Origin: Nitrospiria bacterium
Lineage (GTDB): Bacteria > Nitrospirota > Nitrospiria > JACQBZ01
Reading direction: 5' to 3'
DNA: 64,000 nt
Assembly (NCBI GenBank): GCA_035498035.1
Contig: DATKAN010000038.1
Coordinates: forward strand, 62,001-126,000
In this document: piece by piece, positions 2,055 through 52,611 of the stretch
How positions within the stretch are numbered: the first letter of the stretch is position 1
Layout of the letters: every line of letters begins with the position of its first letter
Notes under the pieces: generated by a model
What the model was told of the DNA's origin: nothing
Database searches by the model: none
The model's input: the letters and a program-made list of their open reading frames with translations, nothing else
Position numbers and translations under genes: made by a program

Positions 2055-4460
2055 CTACGAGATCAACTGCTTGAACCACCGGTAGATTTTATTCGGAAGC
2101 CTGTCCGGTTCGCCGCAGTGGAGCTGCGGCTGGGTCCCCTGGATGAAGGCCTCCCGGATTCCCTCCGGGCAGTCGCGGCCCGAGATCAGGCCGGAGGCCG
2201 GATCGATCGTTTCGAAGACGATCCCGGGCGGGACGGAGAAGCGGGAGACCGGCTGTCCGTCCGTGGCCTGTTTCATAAAGTCGGTCCAGATCGGGAGGGC
2301 GGCCTGCGATCCGGTCAGCTTCAGATCGGCCGGGCTCGATTCGCCCGCCGGGCCGGCGTCGAACCCGACCCAGACGAGGGAGAGAAGGTCCGGCGTGAAG
2401 CCCAGAAACCAGGCGTCCTTGTCGTTGCTGGTCGTCCCGGTCTTCCCGGCCACCGGCCGCGTGAAACCTCGGCTCACGACGCCCCGCCCCGTTCCCCGCT
2501 CGACCACGCCCTCGAGAAGCGTCGTGAGGAGAAAGGCCTGCTGGGGCGTAAGCGCGGGCGTCATATCGAGCGTTTGCCTTTCGAGCACGCGCCCGTCGGC
2601 CGAGACGACCTCTTTCACCGCGATCGGCTCGACCCGGATGCCGCCGTTCGCGATCGTGCCGTAGGCGATCGCGATCTCGAGCGGAACGACCTCGGAGGTT
2701 CCCAGGGCCAGCGAGGGGACGTTCTTCAAGGGGCTCCGGATTCCCATCGCCTGGGCCATCGCGATCACGCGCTCCGTCCCGATCGAATCGGCCAGCCGTA
2801 CGGTCGCCGCGTTCAGCGAGTTTTCGAGCGCCGTCCGCAGCGTCACCGTGCCGTGGTAAACCTTGTCGAAATTCTGGGGCGTCCAGAGCCCGTCGGGCGA
2901 GGGGAGGCTGACCGGGGTGTCCTCGATCCGCGTGGCGGCTGTGTAGGGCGAGCCGTCGGCGGTGACGGCATGGGACAGCGCGGCGGCGTAGACGAAGGGT
3001 TTGAAAAGCGATCCGGGCTGGCGTCGCGCCTGGACGGCCCGGTTGAACTGGCTGACGGCGTAGTTCCGCCCGCCCACCAGCGCCTTGATCTGGCCGGTCT
3101 GGGGCTGGACCGCGATTAGGATCCCTTGGAGCTTTGCCGCCGGGTCGCCGCGACGGAGATGGGGATAGGCCGACTCGAGCCCCCGCAAGCCCTTCGAGAG
3201 GACGGTCTCGGCCGTCCGCTGCTGCTGCGTGTCCAGCGTGGTGAAAATCCGGAAACCTTCCGAGGTCAGGACCTCGGGCTCGTAATGCTCCGCGAGCTGC
3301 TGACGGACGAAATCGACGAAGTAGGGGGCGAACCGCTCCTGCTGCACCGGCGCGCCGGAGGGCAACGGCTCGTCGAGGGCCTTGCGGTGGTCCTCCGGGC
3401 CGATCCTGTTTAGCGTGAGCATCCGGTCCAGCACATACGCCTTCCGCGCCGCGGCCCGCTTCGGGTTGTGAAACGGCGAATAGATGTTCGGCGATTTGAT
3501 CATCCCGGCCAGGAGAGCCGACTCCCCGAGGGTCAGCTCCCGGGGCGGCTTCCCGAAATAGAACCGGGAGGCCTGGCCGATGCCGTAAACCCCCATCGTC
3601 CCGCTTTGCGCGAAATAGATCTCGTTGAGGTAGGCCTCGAGGATCTCATCCTTGGGATAGCGCAGGTCGAGCAGGATCGACATGAAGATCTCGTTCAGTT
3701 TCCGGCTGAGCGTCCGCGACTGATTGAGATAAAAATTCTTGACGAGCTGCTGCGTCAGCGTGCTGCCGCCCTGGACGATCGCCCCTTCCCGGAGGTTCAC
3801 CCAGCCCGCGCGGAGCAGGCTTCGGGGCTCGATCCCGCCGTGTTGGTAGAAGCGGCTGTCCTCGGCCGCGAGGACGGCGTCGATGAGATGCCGCGGGACG
3901 TCGTCGAGCCGGACGAGGTCGCGCTCCTCCCAGGCCTGGTCGTAGAAGGCCGCGATCAGCTCGGGTTCGAGCTCGACCAGGGCCAGCCGGTTTTCGGACG
4001 GCTCCTCCCGGATCGCGGTGATCCGGCCCTTGTCGAGATCGAGCCGGACCGGAAATCCATTGAAAACATGATCCGGGTATTCGAAATCGTGGAGGTAGAG
4101 CGTGAGCGCATCCGGCTCGAGTTGGTATTCGCCGGGATGGGCGGGCGGCGTCGCGACGGGGCGGTAGTCCAGCCGCCGGAGGCGGTCCGGAAGCCGGAGG
4201 CCGTCGATTTCCTGTCCGGGATAAAGAATGAAGGAATCGGAATAAACCTTGGAGGGCAGCCGCCAGCGTTGACCTTCGAAGCGATGGGTGACGATCGCGT
4301 ACAGGACGGCCAGATAGATCGCGAACAGGATCGTCAAAAGGGGAACGACCCCGATGAGTATCCTCCGGCGGTGCTTCCAGAGCCGGGAGGTCCCGCGTGA
4401 AAGATCCCGAAAGAGGGTCTGTAGGATGTCACGAGGCAAGGACTTCCAACCTTTCTTCAA
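2055..4460 (-). CDS. mrcB: Bifunctional class A penicillin-binding protein (PBP1B-like transglycosylase/transpeptidase)
   Basis: Polymerises and cross-links peptidoglycan at the outer face of the inner membrane. The 801-aa protein has a basic N-terminus, one membrane anchor (about residues 33-55) and a UB2H-like region (WRLPSKVYSDSF onward). A GT51 glycosyltransferase domain follows with the catalytic Glu in AAEDSRFYQHGG (near 197). The transpeptidase domain has SLFKP (SxxK, near 485), SLN and KTGTT. The annotated start is a TTG overlapping the 3' end of the JAMM gene by 32 bases. A second in-frame TTG at 4439, ten bases after AAAGG, is an alternative. Symbol given by resemblance. Confidence 0.93.
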   Translation of the reverse strand: MKKGWKSLPRDILQTLFRDLSRGTSRLWKHRRRILIGVVPLLTILFAIYLAVLYAIVTHRFEGQRWRLPSKVYSDSFILYPGQEIDGLRLPDRLRRLDYRPVATPPAHPGEYQLEPDALTLYLHDFEYPDHVFNGFPVRLDLDKGRITAIREEPSENRLALVELEPELIAAFYDQAWEERDLVRLDDVPRHLIDAVLAAEDSRFYQHGGIEPRSLLRAGWVNLREGAIVQGGSTLTQQLVKNFYLNQSRTLSRKLNEIFMSILLDLRYPKDEILEAYLNEIYFAQSGTMGVYGIGQASRFYFGKPPRELTLGESALLAGMIKSPNIYSPFHNPKRAAARKAYVLDRMLTLNRIGPEDHRKALDEPLPSGAPVQQERFAPYFVDFVRQQLAEHYEPEVLTSEGFRIFTTLDTQQQRTAETVLSKGLRGLESAYPHLRRGDPAAKLQGILIAVQPQTGQIKALVGGRNYAVSQFNRAVQARRQPGSLFKPFVYAAALSHAVTADGSPYTAATRIEDTPVSLPSPDGLWTPQNFDKVYHGTVTLRTALENSLNAATVRLADSIGTERVIAMAQAMGIRSPLKNVPSLALGTSEVVPLEIAIAYGTIANGGIRVEPIAVKEVVSADGRVLERQTLDMTPALTPQQAFLLTTLLEGVVERGTGRGVVSRGFTRPVAGKTGTTSNDKDAWFLGFTPDLLSLVWVGFDAGPAGESSPADLKLTGSQAALPIWTDFMKQATDGQPVSRFSVPPGIVFETIDPASGLISGRDCPEGIREAFIQGTQPQLHCGEPDRLPNKIYRWFKQLIS

Positions 4461-4938
4461 TAAAGCGATGCCCGACGATCCGGTAGGCCTTCACGCTCGG
4501 CCGGTCCGGGGTCTCCAATGAAATGATAACATAGAGCGGTTCGGGTTGGTTCATCTTGCTCCAGTTGGGAGAAAAATCGTTGGCAATATTGATGTCGGTC
4601 GGGGAGGGGTGGTCCGGACCGTTCGGATGAGAATGATAGACAACCTGCAATTCAATTTGACGCAATCGTATGTCTTTCTGCGCAAGAGACATTTCCTGGG
4701 CGTCCATTATAAAAGCGACCTTGGCACGGTCTTTTGGAGACCGGCGTTGGAGGTCGGCGACTTTTGCATCGTCGAAGTTCGATAGTTCGGCTCCTTCCAT
4801 AGCGACGACGTTTGCAACCTTGTAACCGTGTGTAACTTGACCATCCTTCCCGGCTAGGAGGCCGCAACATTCGAAGGGAATTTCGGCCTCGGCGTGGACC
4901 AACATCTGGTCGTGGATCGCTTTCGGGATTTTCAGCAT
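4429..4938 (-). CDS. JAMM (Mov34/MPN/PAD-1) metalloprotease, Mec/HcyD-like
   Basis: Zinc isopeptidase/carboxypeptidase of 169 aa. The JAMM signature is complete: a Glu in EIPFECCGLLAG, then HSHP and SPTD, matching HxHx(n)SxxD. In Mycobacterium (Mec) and Wolinella (HcyD), relatives trim residues after, or release amino acids from, the diglycine end of sulfur-carrier proteins. It is the last gene of an operon with two E1-like enzymes and two ubiquitin-like carriers that both have post-glycine tails, so maturation of those carriers is the natural inference. The frame is open upstream to 5049, but ATG at 4938 (MLKIPKAIHDQM) starts the conserved domain and lies 13 bases after the moeB1 stop. Confidence 0.9.
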   Translation of the reverse strand: MLKIPKAIHDQMLVHAEAEIPFECCGLLAGKDGQVTHGYKVANVVAMEGAELSNFDDAKVADLQRRSPKDRAKVAFIMDAQEMSLAQKDIRLRQIELQVVYHSHPNGPDHPSPTDINIANDFSPNWSKMNQPEPLYVIISLETPDRPSVKAYRIVGHRFIEERLEVLAS

Positions 4939-46230: not shown

Positions 46231-46683
46231 GTGCTCCAGATGAAAGTTAGAGGGTTGATGTACGACCCTTTCAATAATGCCTTCATTATCATTTTGCGAG
46301 ATGATCAGGAAAAAGAGGTTTTACCGATCTGGATTGGGAAGCCGGAAGCCGGCGCGATCAGTTTTGCATTGGAAGGGGTTTTTACCCCACGCCCCATGAC
46401 CCATGACCTGATGAAGAACATCCTGGAAAGCAGCAATGCCAAGGTGATCAGTGTCGTCCTCACGGACCTGAAAGACAACACTTATTTCGCAAAGATTCAT
46501 GTTTTCTACGGGGATTCGGAATATACGATTGATTCACGTCCCAGCGATGCCATCGCACTGGCCCTCCGGGTGGACGCGCCCATTTTTGCAACCGAGGATG
46601 TGATTCAGAAACACAGCACGGAGGAGCTCGATCGCTGGTTGGACAATCTTCGTCCGGAAGATTTCGGAAAATACGACGCATAG
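46231..46683 (+). CDS. Bifunctional nuclease family (DUF151) protein, copy 1
   Basis: 150 aa. The DUF151 core is complete: EVLPIWIGKPEAGAISFALEG, RPMTHDLMKNIL and DSRPSDAIALALR. The plant member has RNase and DNase activity; bacterial roles are unsettled. GTG start in an AT-rich leader. Paralogous to the gene at 47382, with a lipoprotein gene between. Confidence 0.9.
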   Translation: MLQMKVRGLMYDPFNNAFIIILRDDQEKEVLPIWIGKPEAGAISFALEGVFTPRPMTHDLMKNILESSNAKVISVVLTDLKDNTYFAKIHVFYGDSEYTIDSRPSDAIALALRVDAPIFATEDVIQKHSTEELDRWLDNLRPEDFGKYDA

Positions 46684-47381: not shown

Positions 47382-47837
47382 ATGGATATCAAATTAAGTG
47401 TGCAGAGTGTGTTGACCGATCCCAAGACCGAAACCCAAGTGGTGCTGTTGCGGGCGGAGGGCAACAAAGAGGTCTTGCCGATCTGGGTCGGGGTTACGGA
47501 AGGGAGCGCGATCAAGTTCGCGCTGGAGGGGATCCTTCCGACCCGCCCGATGACGCACGATCTCCTCAAGAACGTCCTGGATCATCTGGGTCTCCGGGTC
47601 CAGAAGGTGATCATTACGGAAATCAAGAACAACACGTACTATGCCTTGGTCTATATCGAATCGCACGGCAGCCTGCTGAGCATCGACGCCCGTCCCAGCG
47701 ATGCCATCGCCTTGGCCCTCCGCACCCATGTGCCGATTTATGCCGCCAATGAAGTCTTCAAGGAAAGGGGGGGCGAAAGCCTTGATGCCTGGCTGGAAAA
47801 GTTGGGACCGAAAGACTCAGGGGAACATACCGTGTAA
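47382..47837 (+). CDS. Bifunctional nuclease family (DUF151) protein, copy 2
   Basis: 151 aa, same core as copy 1 (EVLPIWVGVTEGSAIKFALEG, RPMTHDLLKNVL, DARPSDAIALALR), clearly a paralogue diverged mostly in the N- and C-termini. Twenty bases after the lipoprotein gene. Retention of two copies around one lipoprotein suggests a joint function. Confidence 0.9.
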   Translation: MDIKLSVQSVLTDPKTETQVVLLRAEGNKEVLPIWVGVTEGSAIKFALEGILPTRPMTHDLLKNVLDHLGLRVQKVIITEIKNNTYYALVYIESHGSLLSIDARPSDAIALALRTHVPIYAANEVFKERGGESLDAWLEKLGPKDSGEHTV

Positions 47838-48028
47838 CGATCGCTTTCCTTGCTGCCCCCGCCCTTTTTTGATTCCTGCCTCAGAAGCACCTCAACGCCG
47901 ATATGAACGCCGAGTTCGACCCAGATCTTCATCCTGAACGCCTGAACAGACTGTTTTTTTGCAACACGCCTTTTCTGTTCGGATAACGCCTTAGGGCTCA
48001 ACCTTCCGCACGGGGAACCGTGAATGCG

Positions 48029-48045
48029 TTGGCATAATCCTTGCT
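48029..48045 (+). promoter_or_regulatory. Sigma54-type (-24/-12) promoter upstream of comEC
   Basis: TTGGCATAATCCTTGCT matches the TGGCAC-N5-TTGCW consensus with the obligatory GG and GC twelve bases apart. Predicted start near 48057, giving a very short leader with the AAGGAG ribosome site at about 48060. Sigma54 often controls pilus genes, consistent with the downstream PilB-like ATPase. Confidence 0.65.
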
Positions 48046-48074
48046 GCAGTAGGATTGCACAAGGAGCCGACTCG

Positions 48075-50603
48075 ATGTCAAGACCCTTAGTGGGGATGGC
48101 CGTTTGCTATCTGACAGGCAGCGCTCTTGGTGAAGCCTGGACTTATTATCCATTGACCACGATCGGATTTGCAAGCGTCGGAGCCGTGCTGATCTCCGCT
48201 TTGCGACCCCGGCGGGAAAATCTCATCCAGGTCGGGGGAGCTGTCTTATTGATTTGTTTGGGAGCGGTTCGATTCCAAAGCGTTGCGCGGATAAATCCAG
48301 CTGATGATCTGGCCCGATTCACATCCGGGGAAGCGGTACGATTCGTCGGGGTTATCGAAGAGCCGCTTCAACACGGGCCGGAGTCCACGCGTCTTCTTCT
48401 GAAGGCCCGTTCGGTCCTTCAAAACGGGAAGGAATATCCGGTCCGTGGAATGCTGCGGCTTATCGTCCGAGATTTTGTCCCGGAACTGCGCTACGGTGAT
48501 CAGATCTCAGCCGATCTACGGCTGCGTCCGGTTTCCGGACTCCACAATCCGGGAGGCTTCGATTATTCGGCCTACTTGTACAGAGAAGGAATTCGCGCTC
48601 TGGCCGTCGTTCATCGCCCGGAGTCAATCTCGCGGCTGTCGGTCGGCGGGTTTGTGCCGTTGCGCAGGATCTATGACTGGAGAGAGCGAATTCGGAATGT
48701 GTTGAACGGGTCTCTTTCACCGGCCTCGTCCGCCATGTATCAAGCGATGCTCATCGGAGAGACCGGAGCATTGAGTCCCGAGATCCGTGAGGCTTTCATG
48801 ATCTCGGGCACGACCCACCTGCTATCGATTTCGGGTTCCCATCTGGCGTTGGTGGCTTTGGTTGTCTTTCATCTGTCGGTCCGGATTTTTCGGCAAATGC
48901 CAGCCCAATGGCTTTTGTCCGTCAGCCGGCGATGGACCGTCACGCGGTTCGGGATCCTGGCCACCCTTGCCCCGGTTGTATTCTATACGCTCCTGGCCGG
49001 CGCGCAGATCGCGACGGTTCGCTCTCTCATCATGATCCTCATCTATCTCACCGCCCTATGGTTCCAGCGGGCCGACGATCCATTGAATGCGTTGGCTGTG
49101 GCAGCTCTCCTCAGCGTACTTTGGGATCCTCAGGCGCTCTTCTCGATCTCCTTTCAACTTTCTTACCTGGCGGTCCTTGCGATGGCTCTGGCCGGCGGGG
49201 ATCAGGTTTCGGTTCGGGAAACCGGAGAAATCAGGGCCCAGGACCCGGGAGGTGAATCCTCATGGGTGGGACGGTCATTGCAGAGGATCCGGGTCTATTT
49301 TTTGATAACGCTCGTGGCCGGGTCTGTCACGGTTCCGTTGACGGCGTTCTATTTTAACCAGATAAGCTGGGTGGGTTTTCTGTCCAATCCGATCGTGGTT
49401 CCCTTTGTGGGAATGTTGATCGTCCCGCTGGGGTTGGTCTGCTCGGTCGGGGCGATTCTCTTTGACCGGACGACATTGCCGTTGTCCGGACTGAACGATG
49501 TTCTGGCAGGCGCACTTTACTCCTTGGTTCAATGGTTCGCTCGGCTCCCGGCGGCCGAGGTGCATGTTCCATCCCCTCCGGTCCTGGTCTTGGCGGTGGT
49601 CTACCTCACGGGGGCCCTCGTGTTTTCCCTCAGAGTAGATCGCGTCTTGAAGTGGACCGCGATCGGTTTGTGCGTTCTAATCACGACGGTATGGATCGTG
49701 AGGTTGTTGGAGTCCCGGCCGGAGGGGCGGCTGCGCGTGACCTTTCTCGATGTGGGACAGGGGGATGCCGCGTGGATTGAAATGCCGGATGGAAAAACGA
49801 TGCTGATCGACGGTGGCGGCGCGTACGGCAACTATGATCTCGGTCGATTGGCCGTTGCCCCCTATCTCTGGAACGCCGGTCATTGGCGGATCGATTACCT
49901 GGTCGCGAGCCATCCTCAGCTGGATCACATGGGCGGGCTGGTCTATATCGCGCGGAAATTTCAAGTGGGCGAACTTTGGACGAACGGCCTGCAGAAAGAG
50001 GCGGTTTTTTATGACCGGTTTCGCCAGGTTGTGTCGGCCAAGGCGATTCCGGAAAAACAGGTTACGGGAAGTGGATTTCCGTTGCTGGGGGGCCCGGTGC
50101 GGATCGTGCCGCTGCATCCCCAAATGGCGGACCCTGATGGACCTGATAACGATCAATCCCTGGTCCTGCGTGTTGCGTACGGACGGGAGGCGCTTTTGTT
50201 CACCGGAGACATCGAAAAAGCGGCGGAGAGGGAACTTCTCCGGTGGGGGAATCTTCTCAAAAACACGGTCCTGAAAGTTCCGCACCATGGCAGCCGGACC
50301 TCGATCGATCCCGACTTTCTGGCCCGAGTGGCCCCGGATGTGGCGGTGATTTCGGTCGGTGCAAATAATCCTTATCGCCACCCGTCGCCGGAGACATTGT
50401 CCGTGTATCACGCCTTGAAGACGAAGGTCTACCGTACGGATCAGGACGGGGCGGTTCTGCTTGAGACGGACGGAAAAGGCCGAAGGGTTTGGACCTATCA
50501 AGACAGCGTTTCCCATCCGGTGGCGTGGGGACGTGGAATGGCGGCGGCTGAGGCCTCCAATCTCATGAAGGTATTCCATCGGTACTGGTTTGGTCCGGCT
50601 TGA
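48075..50603 (+). CDS. comEC: DNA-uptake channel protein ComEC/Rec2
   Basis: Inner-membrane channel for transforming DNA. From ATG at 48075 (AAGGAG nine bases upstream) 842 aa. N-terminal hydrophobic segments and DUF4131 region, then the Competence domain (MLIGETGALSPEIREAFMISGTTHLLSISGSHLAL) with multiple helices. The C-terminal metallo-beta-lactamase domain reads TFLDVGQGDAAWI, ASHPQLDHMGG and KVPHHGSRTS, with zinc ligands present, so nuclease activity is plausible. Confidence 0.94.
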   Translation: MSRPLVGMAVCYLTGSALGEAWTYYPLTTIGFASVGAVLISALRPRRENLIQVGGAVLLICLGAVRFQSVARINPADDLARFTSGEAVRFVGVIEEPLQHGPESTRLLLKARSVLQNGKEYPVRGMLRLIVRDFVPELRYGDQISADLRLRPVSGLHNPGGFDYSAYLYREGIRALAVVHRPESISRLSVGGFVPLRRIYDWRERIRNVLNGSLSPASSAMYQAMLIGETGALSPEIREAFMISGTTHLLSISGSHLALVALVVFHLSVRIFRQMPAQWLLSVSRRWTVTRFGILATLAPVVFYTLLAGAQIATVRSLIMILIYLTALWFQRADDPLNALAVAALLSVLWDPQALFSISFQLSYLAVLAMALAGGDQVSVRETGEIRAQDPGGESSWVGRSLQRIRVYFLITLVAGSVTVPLTAFYFNQISWVGFLSNPIVVPFVGMLIVPLGLVCSVGAILFDRTTLPLSGLNDVLAGALYSLVQWFARLPAAEVHVPSPPVLVLAVVYLTGALVFSLRVDRVLKWTAIGLCVLITTVWIVRLLESRPEGRLRVTFLDVGQGDAAWIEMPDGKTMLIDGGGAYGNYDLGRLAVAPYLWNAGHWRIDYLVASHPQLDHMGGLVYIARKFQVGELWTNGLQKEAVFYDRFRQVVSAKAIPEKQVTGSGFPLLGGPVRIVPLHPQMADPDGPDNDQSLVLRVAYGREALLFTGDIEKAAERELLRWGNLLKNTVLKVPHHGSRTSIDPDFLARVAPDVAVISVGANNPYRHPSPETLSVYHALKTKVYRTDQDGAVLLETDGKGRRVWTYQDSVSHPVAWGRGMAAAEASNLMKVFHRYWFGPA

Positions 50604-50627
50604 CAAAGGACGGGTCTATAGTAGAAT
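50600..50627 (+). promoter_or_regulatory. Sigma70-type promoter of the PilB/GspE-like gene
   Basis: TTGACA, 16 bases, TAGAAT, overlapping the comEC stop codon. The ATPase gene may therefore be expressed both from here and from comEC read-through. Confidence 0.6.
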
Positions 50628-50658: not shown

Positions 50659-52611
50659 GTGTCCGAGAAGGAATCCCAGAAAAACGGAGTGGAGTTCAAA
50701 AACAAAAAGCGCTTGGGCGATTTTCTGTTCGATGCGGGGCTGATCACCCGCGACCAACTCCAACGCGCCTTGAACGAGCAGAAACGGTTGGGAAAGAAGT
50801 TGGGAGAGACGCTCATCACCCTGCGCATCATTTCGGATGAGGCCCTGGCGCAGGCGCTCTCCACGCAACTGGGCTACCCCTTCGTGGATCTGAGCACAAC
50901 GGCGCTTGAGCCGGACATCGTCATGGCCATCCCGGAAGCTCTGGCCAGCAAACAGTGCGCCATCCCGGTTTCGCTGGAAAATAAAACGATGACCGTGGCG
51001 ATGGTCGATCCCCTCGACTATGAATGTCTGCGGGACCTCGGCTTTGCCAGCGGATTCCGGATCCAGCCGGTCATCGCGACGCGCAGGGATATCCTGGAAG
51101 CGATCGAGCGGTATTACAACATGAATACGTCGGTGGAGAGCATCGTTAAGGAAACGGCCCAGCAGTACGATGATTCCGTTCTCCAGATCATTCCGGAAAT
51201 CGGCTCCGCGGTGGCCGATGCCCAATCTCTGGAAGAACGGAGCCGCCTGGCGCCGGTGATCCGCTTGGCCAATTTGATCATGACCAAGGCCATTCGGCAG
51301 CGCGCCAGCGATATTCACATTGAGCCCACCGCGCGGGATTTCCGCGTGCGGTATCGGATCGATGGCCTGCTCAAGGAAGACCTCCGGTTGCCGAAGTGGA
51401 TCCACGGGGCGTTGATATCCCGCATGAAGATTTTAGGGCAGCTGAACATCGCCGAGCGGCGGTTGCCGCAGGACGGTTCGGTGCGCGTGCGATCGGATAA
51501 CCGGGAGATCGATCTGAGGCTCTCCACTCTCCCGACCCAGTACGGGGAGAAAATGGTGATCCGCGTACTGGATCAGGGAAGGCTGGTGGTGGCGCTCGAT
51601 ACGCTGGGGGTGTCGCCCCAGAATTTATCCAAGATTCACTCGCTGATGCGGTGCAGAAGGGGCATCATCCTGGTCACCGGCCCGACCGGAAGCGGAAAGA
51701 CGACGACCTTGTACTCCATGATCCATGCCATGCGGGATGAGGTGACGAACATCGTGACGGTGGAGAATCCCATCGAATATAACCTGGAAGGGGTGAATCA
51801 GGTTCAGATCAACACGGACATCGGTCTCACGTTTGCCCACTGTTTAAGGGCGATCCTCCGGCAGGACCCGAACGTGATCCTGATCGGCGAGATCCGGGAC
51901 TTGGAAACGGCCGAGATTGCTTGCCGGGCGGCCATGACCGGCCACCTCGTGCTTTCAACAGTTCATACAAACGACGCGCCTTCCACGATCACGCGATTGG
52001 TCGACCTTGGCATACCGCGTTATCTGGTGGGATCGCTCGTCATGGGTGTCATTGCCCAACGCCTGGTGAGAAGCGTCTGCCCGCGGTGTAAAACCGTCAC
52101 GCCGCCCCCCGTGGAAAGTCTGGTAAGTCTGCACATTCCCTTGGATTCGGTGAAGAGCGTGGATTTCTACTACGGCAAGGGTTGCAGCTACTGCCACTAC
52201 ATCGGCTATCAGGGCCGGACCGGGCTGTATGAAATCTTGGAAATGACGCCGCGGCTGAGAGAACTGGTCGTGTCCGGCGCGGCCGAACAGGACATCCGGT
52301 CCGCGGCCTTGGCTGCGAAGATGACATCGCTGGGGGAGGACGGCCTGAACAAAGTCAAGGCGGGTATCACGACGATCGAGGAGCTGGTGCGCGTGATCGA
52401 GGTCCGCGAGGATCTTCAAACTTTTTGTACGCATTGCGGACAGTCCATTCACATCGATTTCCAGGTCTGTCCGTATTGCGCTCATCCGGTGTCCCATCAC
52501 TGTCATGCCTGCGGCAAACCGCTTCAGCCGGAATGGATCGTCTGCCCCTACTGCCGGATCCGCGTCGGCGAAGCCCCGCCGGCCCGTTTTTCCAAGGCGA
52601 AGCCCGCATAA
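50659..52611 (+). CDS. Type IV pilus/type II secretion ATPase (PilB/GspE family) with extra C-terminal zinc ribbons
   Basis: Hexameric motor that extends pili or drives secretion. 650 aa: GspE N-terminal domain (LGDFLFDAGLITRDQLQRAL), Walker A GPTGSGKTTTLYSM (about 341-354), Asp box and Walker B (RAILRQDPNVILIGEIRD), His box and the usual four-Cys zinc site (CPRC...CSYC). Unusually, the last 70 residues add two more zinc-ribbon pairs (CTHCG...CPYC and CHACG...CPYC). GTG start. Sits after comEC, hinting at a competence pilus. Confidence 0.93.
   Translation: MSEKESQKNGVEFKNKKRLGDFLFDAGLITRDQLQRALNEQKRLGKKLGETLITLRIISDEALAQALSTQLGYPFVDLSTTALEPDIVMAIPEALASKQCAIPVSLENKTMTVAMVDPLDYECLRDLGFASGFRIQPVIATRRDILEAIERYYNMNTSVESIVKETAQQYDDSVLQIIPEIGSAVADAQSLEERSRLAPVIRLANLIMTKAIRQRASDIHIEPTARDFRVRYRIDGLLKEDLRLPKWIHGALISRMKILGQLNIAERRLPQDGSVRVRSDNREIDLRLSTLPTQYGEKMVIRVLDQGRLVVALDTLGVSPQNLSKIHSLMRCRRGIILVTGPTGSGKTTTLYSMIHAMRDEVTNIVTVENPIEYNLEGVNQVQINTDIGLTFAHCLRAILRQDPNVILIGEIRDLETAEIACRAAMTGHLVLSTVHTNDAPSTITRLVDLGIPRYLVGSLVMGVIAQRLVRSVCPRCKTVTPPPVESLVSLHIPLDSVKSVDFYYGKGCSYCHYIGYQGRTGLYEILEMTPRLRELVVSGAAEQDIRSAALAAKMTSLGEDGLNKVKAGITTIEELVRVIEVREDLQTFCTHCGQSIHIDFQVCPYCAHPVSHHCHACGKPLQPEWIVCPYCRIRVGEAPPARFSKAKPA

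Follow-up and report, generated by a model that had tools for sequence, protein, structure and literature searches.

A conserved double zinc-ribbon tail on a PilB/GspE-like ATPase of Nitrospirota, a candidate docking port of a probable auxiliary pilus motor

The closest described counterpart of the protein reported here is cyanobacterial PilB1, a motor with regulatory partners as far as the excerpted texts of two sources go (PMC4390875, PMC12288463). In the same excerpts, its conserved tetra-Cys C-terminal domain is stated to hold Hfq and to be lacking in PilB of other bacteria (the latter in a 2015 review; PMC4390875), cyanobacterial PilB is depicted as a hub of interactions that also contacts PATAN receivers and a DnaK/DnaJ system, and RNA binding by cyanobacterial Hfq is doubted (PMC12288463). 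In Myxococcus xanthus, MglA and SgmX recruit PilB to the pole, direct contact between SgmX and PilB being reported as not detected in the part of the source available (PMC11580455). By which route signals act on the pilus extension motor is presented in these excerpts as an open question both in Myxococcus (PMC11580455) and in cyanobacteria (PMC12288463). In the titles and abstract beginnings of the open-licence literature, we found no zinc-ribbon tail on PilB, GspE or type IV pilus proteins outside cyanobacteria, nor did we find there the Nitrospirota double-ribbon subfamily, the receiver fusions or the nine-ribbon form described below. Tetra-Cys-tailed PilB is known from cyanobacteria, and these three forms are, judging from the same searches, apparently new.

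An intact motor ending in two zinc ribbons

The window, i.e., the whole stretch of 64,000 nucleotides analysed, comes from an assembly of 2.67 Mb and carries on its forward strand, like the parts of this gene, the promoter-like site and comEC located below, a gene for a PilB/GspE-like ATPase with a double zinc-ribbon tail (50,659–52,611; GTG start, 650 aa). Its direct neighbours are comEC upstream and putA downstream, and no recognised platform, pilin or pilT/pilC gene lies beside it. The product falls within the T2SSE (PilB/GspE/PilT) family by its motor domain (Pfam PF00437, residues 196–578, positions 51,244–52,392, 427.3 bits), by its motifs and by the normal four-Cys site of the family, C474-x2-C477...C509-x2-C512 (52,078–52,194). 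The Asp-box region RLPQDG (residues 268–273, 51,460–51,477), Walker A GPTGSGKTT (341–349, 51,679–51,705), the Walker B region GEIRD (410–414, 51,886–51,900) and the His box TVHTN (434–438, 51,958–51,972) are all intact. In front of the motor lie an MshE-type c-di-GMP motif (NCBIfam NF053729, residues 18–70, 50,710–50,868, 69.6 bits for a cut-off of 38), from which c-di-GMP binding is predicted, and an MshEN domain (Pfam PF05157, residues 71–155, 50,869–51,123, 73.9 bits). The protein scores below the equivalog cut-offs of type IVa PilB (TIGR02538, 596.2 against 675.65 bits), type II GspE (TIGR02533, 562.6 against 630.25) and the competence ATPase ComGA (NF041000, 264.8 against 300), and its best PDB relatives are PilB, PilF, GspE and MshE chains.

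Seven T2SSE matches were found in the genome, namely this ATPase, three further PilB/GspE-like proteins and three PilT-like ones. Since the genome has, by ORF reading, its own pilB-pilT-pilC cluster (contig C26), a gsp-like cluster with gspE and a third cluster of ATPase, platform and pilin genes elsewhere, the window ATPase is an extra motor. Moreover, because this motor is intact, bears a c-di-GMP-type front and has no recognised platform gene beside it, an auxiliary extension motor acting on a shared base is suggested.

As a sequence-only reading of this DNA had described, the ORF ends in two Cys-pair ribbons beyond the normal four-Cys site, and their assignment to the double-zinc-ribbon type is confirmed by Pfam DZR (PF12773), which covers residues 590–632 with their eight Cys at 35.1 bits for a cut-off of 27.3 (41.2 bits when the whole genome is scanned). 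Ribbon 1 (CTHC-x10-CPYC, CTHCGQSIHIDFQVCPYC, residues 590–607, 52,426–52,479) and ribbon 2 (CHAC-x10-CPYC with W626, CHACGKPLQPEWIVCPYC, residues 615–632, 52,501–52,554), both delimited by DZR and the aligned tails, presumably bind zinc. They are followed by a C-terminal end (52,555–52,608) that drifts from residue 634 on. None of the matched PDB chains covers the tail, the best stretches ending at or before query residue 587. A full-length AlphaFold model built on 15 rows is poor, with a pLDDT of 63, and of about 55 in the tail; a Foldseek search with the modelled tail gave 212 hits at E<=10, of which not one reached E<=0.001. Fingers of the RanBP2 type in complex with Ran, considered as a fold match, stand at chance level (E ~0.6), and matches from PHROGs and PADLOC look like generic ribbon or P-loop matches; both were set aside.

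Conservation and distribution of the tail

Sixteen diverse tails, aligned without gaps over 91 columns, share without exception the eight Cys, the two CP prolines and W626. We extended this comparison to a census of 61 distinct eight-Cys tails (51 non-cyanobacterial, 10 cyanobacterial) found among 115 distinct ATPase ORFs: the ribbon-2 spacing of 10, the inter-ribbon gap of 7 and the Trp three residues before the last Cys pair are constant in 61/61, and in ribbon 1 the spacing of 10 holds for 59 tails, two having 8. Outside the census, L123, L128, L219 and L223 obey these rules and L224 breaks them (Leu for Trp in the second ribbon, gap of 8). In five close pairs, dN/dS is 0.056, 0.097, 0.035, 0.084 and 0.170 for the ribbons and 0.083, 0.115, 0.095, 0.106 and 0.099 for the motor, so the ribbons are as constrained as the motor. 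Residues 634–650 reach 0.59 to 1.03 in four of these pairs, the fifth offering 12 codons, too few for a meaningful value, and a sixth pair being saturated. Invariance, census constancy and dN/dS together rule out a chance origin of the tail.

Among 40 relatives, 26 match the window ATPase at E<=1e-150 and the match spans the tail in 24, stopping short of it in G012 and G020; at this threshold, more divergent tail-bearing ATPases could be missed in the 16 negatives, of which ten from family f2 and two from family f12 are also negative for a tail profile, G012, G019, G020 and G025 being absent from the profile listing. The tail-bearing ATPase is thus absent from all ten f2 genomes by both searches. 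Using the tail profile, matches were obtained in 25 of 198 genomes of the window's phylum (E<=1e-10). Matches were also obtained in 12 of 58 genomes from the phylum of G220–G222 (E<=1e-8; one of its records, L065, is titled UBP9), eight of these 12 spanning essentially the whole profile and four being partial, and in 54 of 59 from the phylum to which an Obscuribacterales record belongs. In 299 genomes from the phylum represented by a record titled 'Proteobacteria bacterium', no match included the ribbons and a single weak partial one without them was obtained (L218), with 17 candidates scored per genome and with the reservation that the title of a record may differ from its actual phylum. A survey of contigs by pattern (DF[LQ][IVA]CPYC or the ribbon-2 pattern), which is non-exhaustive and in which the conserved DF is partly a product of selection, yielded 61 loci; 18 (L050–L067) encode tail-bearing ATPases, 15 with Walker A and three degenerate, and most of the others encode proteins of about 150 aa that have this ribbon pair at their end, a few being unrelated zinc-ribbon proteins.

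The tail therefore marks a conserved ATPase subfamily in Nitrospirota. The sequence-only reading had proposed that the ribbons are rare in the family, and it was to fall if they proved non-conserved or missing in orthologues; this was checked and is not the case. The ribbons are conserved, and their rarity holds in part: the tail is absent from the three other PilB/GspE-like ATPases of the genome and from the 299 genomes above, but it is present in 24 of the 40 relatives, in other Nitrospirota, in the phylum of the UBP9 record and in Cyanobacteriota. PilB-like ATPases with such ribbons occur in Nitrospirota, at variance with the absence from other bacteria stated in the excerpted review (PMC4390875), which suggests that the tail of cyanobacterial PilB1 is no cyanobacterial peculiarity.

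The same ribbon type also exists without any motor. Indeed, the proteins of about 150 aa from Actinomycetota and Chloroflexota (L069, L071, L076, L082, L099, L103 and others) end in a Trp-type double ribbon, and those inspected show by eye a hydrophobic N-terminal part and are apparently membrane-bound; L069 has a PLDc_N match of 22.5 bits, below the cut-off of 23.3. Over the 43 loci L068–L110, no T2SSE-like ORF lies in reach except at L109, where the match is an unrelated protein. Since the Trp-type ribbon also sits on such proteins without a pilus ATPase in reach, it is not pilus-specific.

Ribbon arrays, receiver domains and MglA

Architectures were assigned by Pfam for L066, L114, L120, L125, L128, L223, L224 and the window, and by sequence reading for the rest. 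The MshEN-T2SSE-DZR order of the window recurs in other Nitrospiria, L111–L113 and L130. Other proteins have a receiver in front (receiver-MshEN-T2SSE-DZR, about 800 aa; L114 by Pfam, L115–L118, L121 and L124, with L123 split over two ORFs), a double MshEN (L119, L120, L122, L129) or a receiver after the ribbons (L125, L066, L223 and L224 by Pfam; L127, L065 and L067 by sequence). In L224 (1–3273), the PilB-like ATPase is followed by nine C-x2-C-x10-C-x2-C ribbons, seven of them with Trp, and then by the receiver; some of these ribbons are separated by Pro-rich linkers. L128 (5636–6379) joins a receiver to a double ribbon without ATPase, beside genes of the clusters c34 and c35 that also flank the receiver-ATPase-ribbon region of L114/L115, as if the motor had been lost by a natural deletion. 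In L065–L067, Walker A reads GPAGSGRTST, with arginine for the lysine, and GEIRD is missing; because the motor motifs are lost and the ribbons and receiver stay, these are likely pseudo-ATPases that keep their signalling parts. The corresponding genomes, G220–G222, contain 22 to 29 T2SSE-family matches each, many of PilT-like length and score, which is an unusual expansion. Around L125 lie PilT-like, DnaJ, GGDEF and degenerate MshEN-T2SSE genes, and an MshEN-T2SSE protein with a weak motor match of 27.3 bits (3128–4549, reverse strand) is found near the DnaJ-domain, PilT-like and tail-bearing ATPase genes.

Cyanobacterial PilB proteins are equally diverse, with a double and sometimes a third ribbon (L166–L168, L171, L174, L178, L179 and others), a single ribbon of the form C..C.{6}[ED]W..CPYC (L196–L202, L204, L205), a single ribbon placed after a long low-complexity linker (L175–L177, L193) or no tail at all (L173, L180–L184, L186–L192 and others). 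Ribbon number is thus one in PilB of the photosynthetic type (a class that is itself inferred), two in most proteins, three in some Cyanobacteriota and nine in L224, the ribbon type being mostly retained.

Because copy number varies, ribbons are found without motor in L128, receivers are fused to them and Hfq offers a precedent, a docking port is favoured over a structural or catalytic part. With a probability of about 0.58, we interpret the window protein as an auxiliary pilus-extension-type motor on whose two-ribbon tail a regulatory protein docks. The ATPase, expected from its family to be hexameric, has the full catalytic motif set behind an MshE-type c-di-GMP region; it would serve a pilus by using a shared pilus base, and the protein docked on its tail would decide when or where the motor engages the type IV pilus base. 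Since the tail is conserved across the lineage and resembles the partner-holding tail of cyanobacteria, it probably acts as the socket of a control protein and not in DNA uptake. The suggestion of the sequence-only reading that the tail could bind a partner is hence the one that best suits the evidence, docking being its presumed task.

A purely structural tail, with ribbons that lend stability to the hexamer or lie against either the platform or the C-terminal domain of the motor itself, without outside regulatory partner, appears unlikely, although it has real arguments: the ribbons are constrained like the motor, ribbon-2 spacing and gap are fixed in 61/61 tails, and EpsE, in the excerpted text of PMC5061722, needs the normal metal site of the family. 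It fits poorly, however, with the ATPase-free ribbons of L128, with a ribbon number ranging from one to nine and with the four cyanobacterial proteins that keep one ribbon behind a long low-complexity linker.

If docking is the task of the tail, the partner may belong to a circuit of MglA and two-component proteins travelling with these ATPases. Of the 38 loci searched, eight have an MglA-like GTPase in reach, and these eight are the full set of receiver-first loci (L114–L118, L121, L123, L124); the 30 others have none in reach, nor has the window. The GTPase of L114 matches M. xanthus MglA with a phmmer E value of 1e-46, and kinase and receiver-HD genes are found at the same locus. In the window's genome, MglA (G000:C38:144494, E 5.7e-46; ORF L225:8465-9049, Pfam Arf 35.4 bits) is encoded about 30 kb downstream of the ATPase gene, on the same contig and not adjacent to it. 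Over the 40 relatives, 22 have both proteins, two the tail-bearing ATPase only (G002, G021), two MglA only (G019, G020) and 14 neither (Fisher 5.3e-7; 2.6e-6 in the 38 PilT-positive genomes); counted by family, a family being positive if any member is, the distribution is 8:0 versus 0:4 (p 0.002). PilT is kept in the ten f2 genomes that have neither the tail-bearing ATPase nor MglA. As 10 of the 14 double negatives come from this one family and the counts are not independent, the co-occurrence is suggestive only. The link of MglA to the ATPase consists of this suggestive co-occurrence and of nearness in the receiver-first forms, and a partner derived from MglA or from a receiver is our preferred, unproven candidate. 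In any event, a conserved, small and separable tail that recurs with receivers and MglA provides a concrete bait for the contact between motor and signalling.

A wider and rather speculative proposal, which we regard as improbable in its full extent, is that pilus motors generally receive input through Trp-type ribbons, one to nine of which are arrayed on motors of at least three bacterial groups. In Nitrospirota, these ribbons would read MglA-GTP together with a receiver-domain signal, by direct contact with the GTPase or with its effector. If it were true, the Hfq dock of cyanobacteria would be a specialised, reduced case of a wider class of signal-gated motors.

comEC, Hfq and the comparison with known motors

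The position of the gene beside comEC (48,024–50,603; Pfam Competence, DUF4131 and Lactamase_B) had raised the idea of an association with comEC to be sought in other genomes. It holds in the family of the window, comEC being directly upstream of the tail-bearing ATPase in 6/6 loci (window and L050–L054), but it was seen in this family alone, other compared lineages with the same tail having other genes there, and the link is weak. For instance, a 6-pyruvoyl-tetrahydropterin-synthase-like gene (cluster c6, by domain scan of one member) follows the ATPase in L058–L061, L063 and L064, and glgB lies downstream on the other strand in L056, the same cluster being found again in L057, L111–L113 and L130 (L111 and L112 come from the same genomes as L057 and L056, respectively). 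Further upstream of comEC in the window, we observed two genes with a bifunctional-nuclease domain (BFN; 46,231–46,683 and 47,382–47,837) enclosing one ORF of 223 aa.

Zinc ribbons can bind nucleic acid, and the 6/6 adjacency would agree with a tail that binds nucleic acid on a motor that acts in competence together with the ComEC encoded next to it. We consider this very doubtful in view of the different neighbours of other lineages, of the ComGA score lying below its cut-off and of a promoter-like site, TTGACA-16-TAGAAT (50,600–50,627, a consensus match only), which separates comEC from the ATPase gene. Besides, ribbon 2 is not notably basic, since it has one Lys and one Glu between its Cys pairs, and none of our observations indicates binding of nucleic acid. 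A partnership with comEC as a general rule was rejected in view of the neighbours in the other lineages compared and of this promoter-like site.

Among cyanobacterial proteins, those from Acaryochloris marina plasmids align over residues 8–650, and seven single-ribbon cyanobacterial rows score higher than their own shuffles on the ribbon-2 profile of Nitrospirota (P 0.00025 or less), P ranging from below 0.00005 to 0.015 for all 30 cyanobacterial ribbons; this test scored non-Cys positions, kept composition and Cys, and cannot tell common descent apart from requirements that all zinc ribbons share. Because the ribbon type is not pilus-specific, the likeness is weaker evidence than these P values suggest. 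In a tree of the ATPase cores, cut by profile, a supported branch (97/94) separates the 18 tail-bearing cyanobacterial rows from the tail-bearers of Nitrospirota, on whose side four cyanobacterial rows without a tail (L173, L180, L185, L192) are placed; the degenerate UBP9 row, a very long branch, was left out of a second tree. One clade of all tail-bearing ATPases was rejected (AU p 0.00197, 55 rows versus 19; least changes 4), in a test whose group was named after the first tree was seen and which has an arbitrary root, long branches and two possibly false joins. It follows from this rejection that two or more branches of the family bear the tail, as a result of either repeated gain or loss.

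Canonical Hfq was found by PF17209 in five of the 40 relatives, and the cyanobacterial-type model PF21979, which as a positive control matches in Synechococcus elongatus, finds the same five, all below its cut-off. That the tail docks Hfq as in PilB1 is, despite a ribbon pattern and spacing identical to those of single-ribbon cyanobacterial tails, nearly refuted for this genome and was rejected, since both models find Hfq in 0/7 genomes of the window's family and the cores that bear a tail fail to form a single clade (AU p 0.002).

Set against known systems, the window ATPase has in common with MshE, and with PilB proteins bearing MshEN, the N-terminal c-di-GMP-type region and the T2SSE motor, and differs in its ribbon tail, which none of the matched PDB chains covers. 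With GspE/EpsE it shares the normal four-Cys metal site and the motor motifs, but it scores below the GspE equivalog cut-off and its extra ribbons form a separate unit after residue 588. The Actinomycetota and Chloroflexota proteins of about 150 aa have the same ribbon pair, DF..CPYC and W..CPYC (the DF being part of the search pattern), on a hydrophobic N-terminal part in place of an ATPase domain. Finally, cyanobacterial PilB1 combines, like the window ATPase, a PilB-type ATPase with a C-terminal C-x2-C-x10-CPYC ribbon whose Trp stands three residues before the last pair; whereas PilB1 of the photosynthetic type has one such ribbon, with two or three elsewhere in the phylum, the window ATPase has two and lies outside any pilus cluster.
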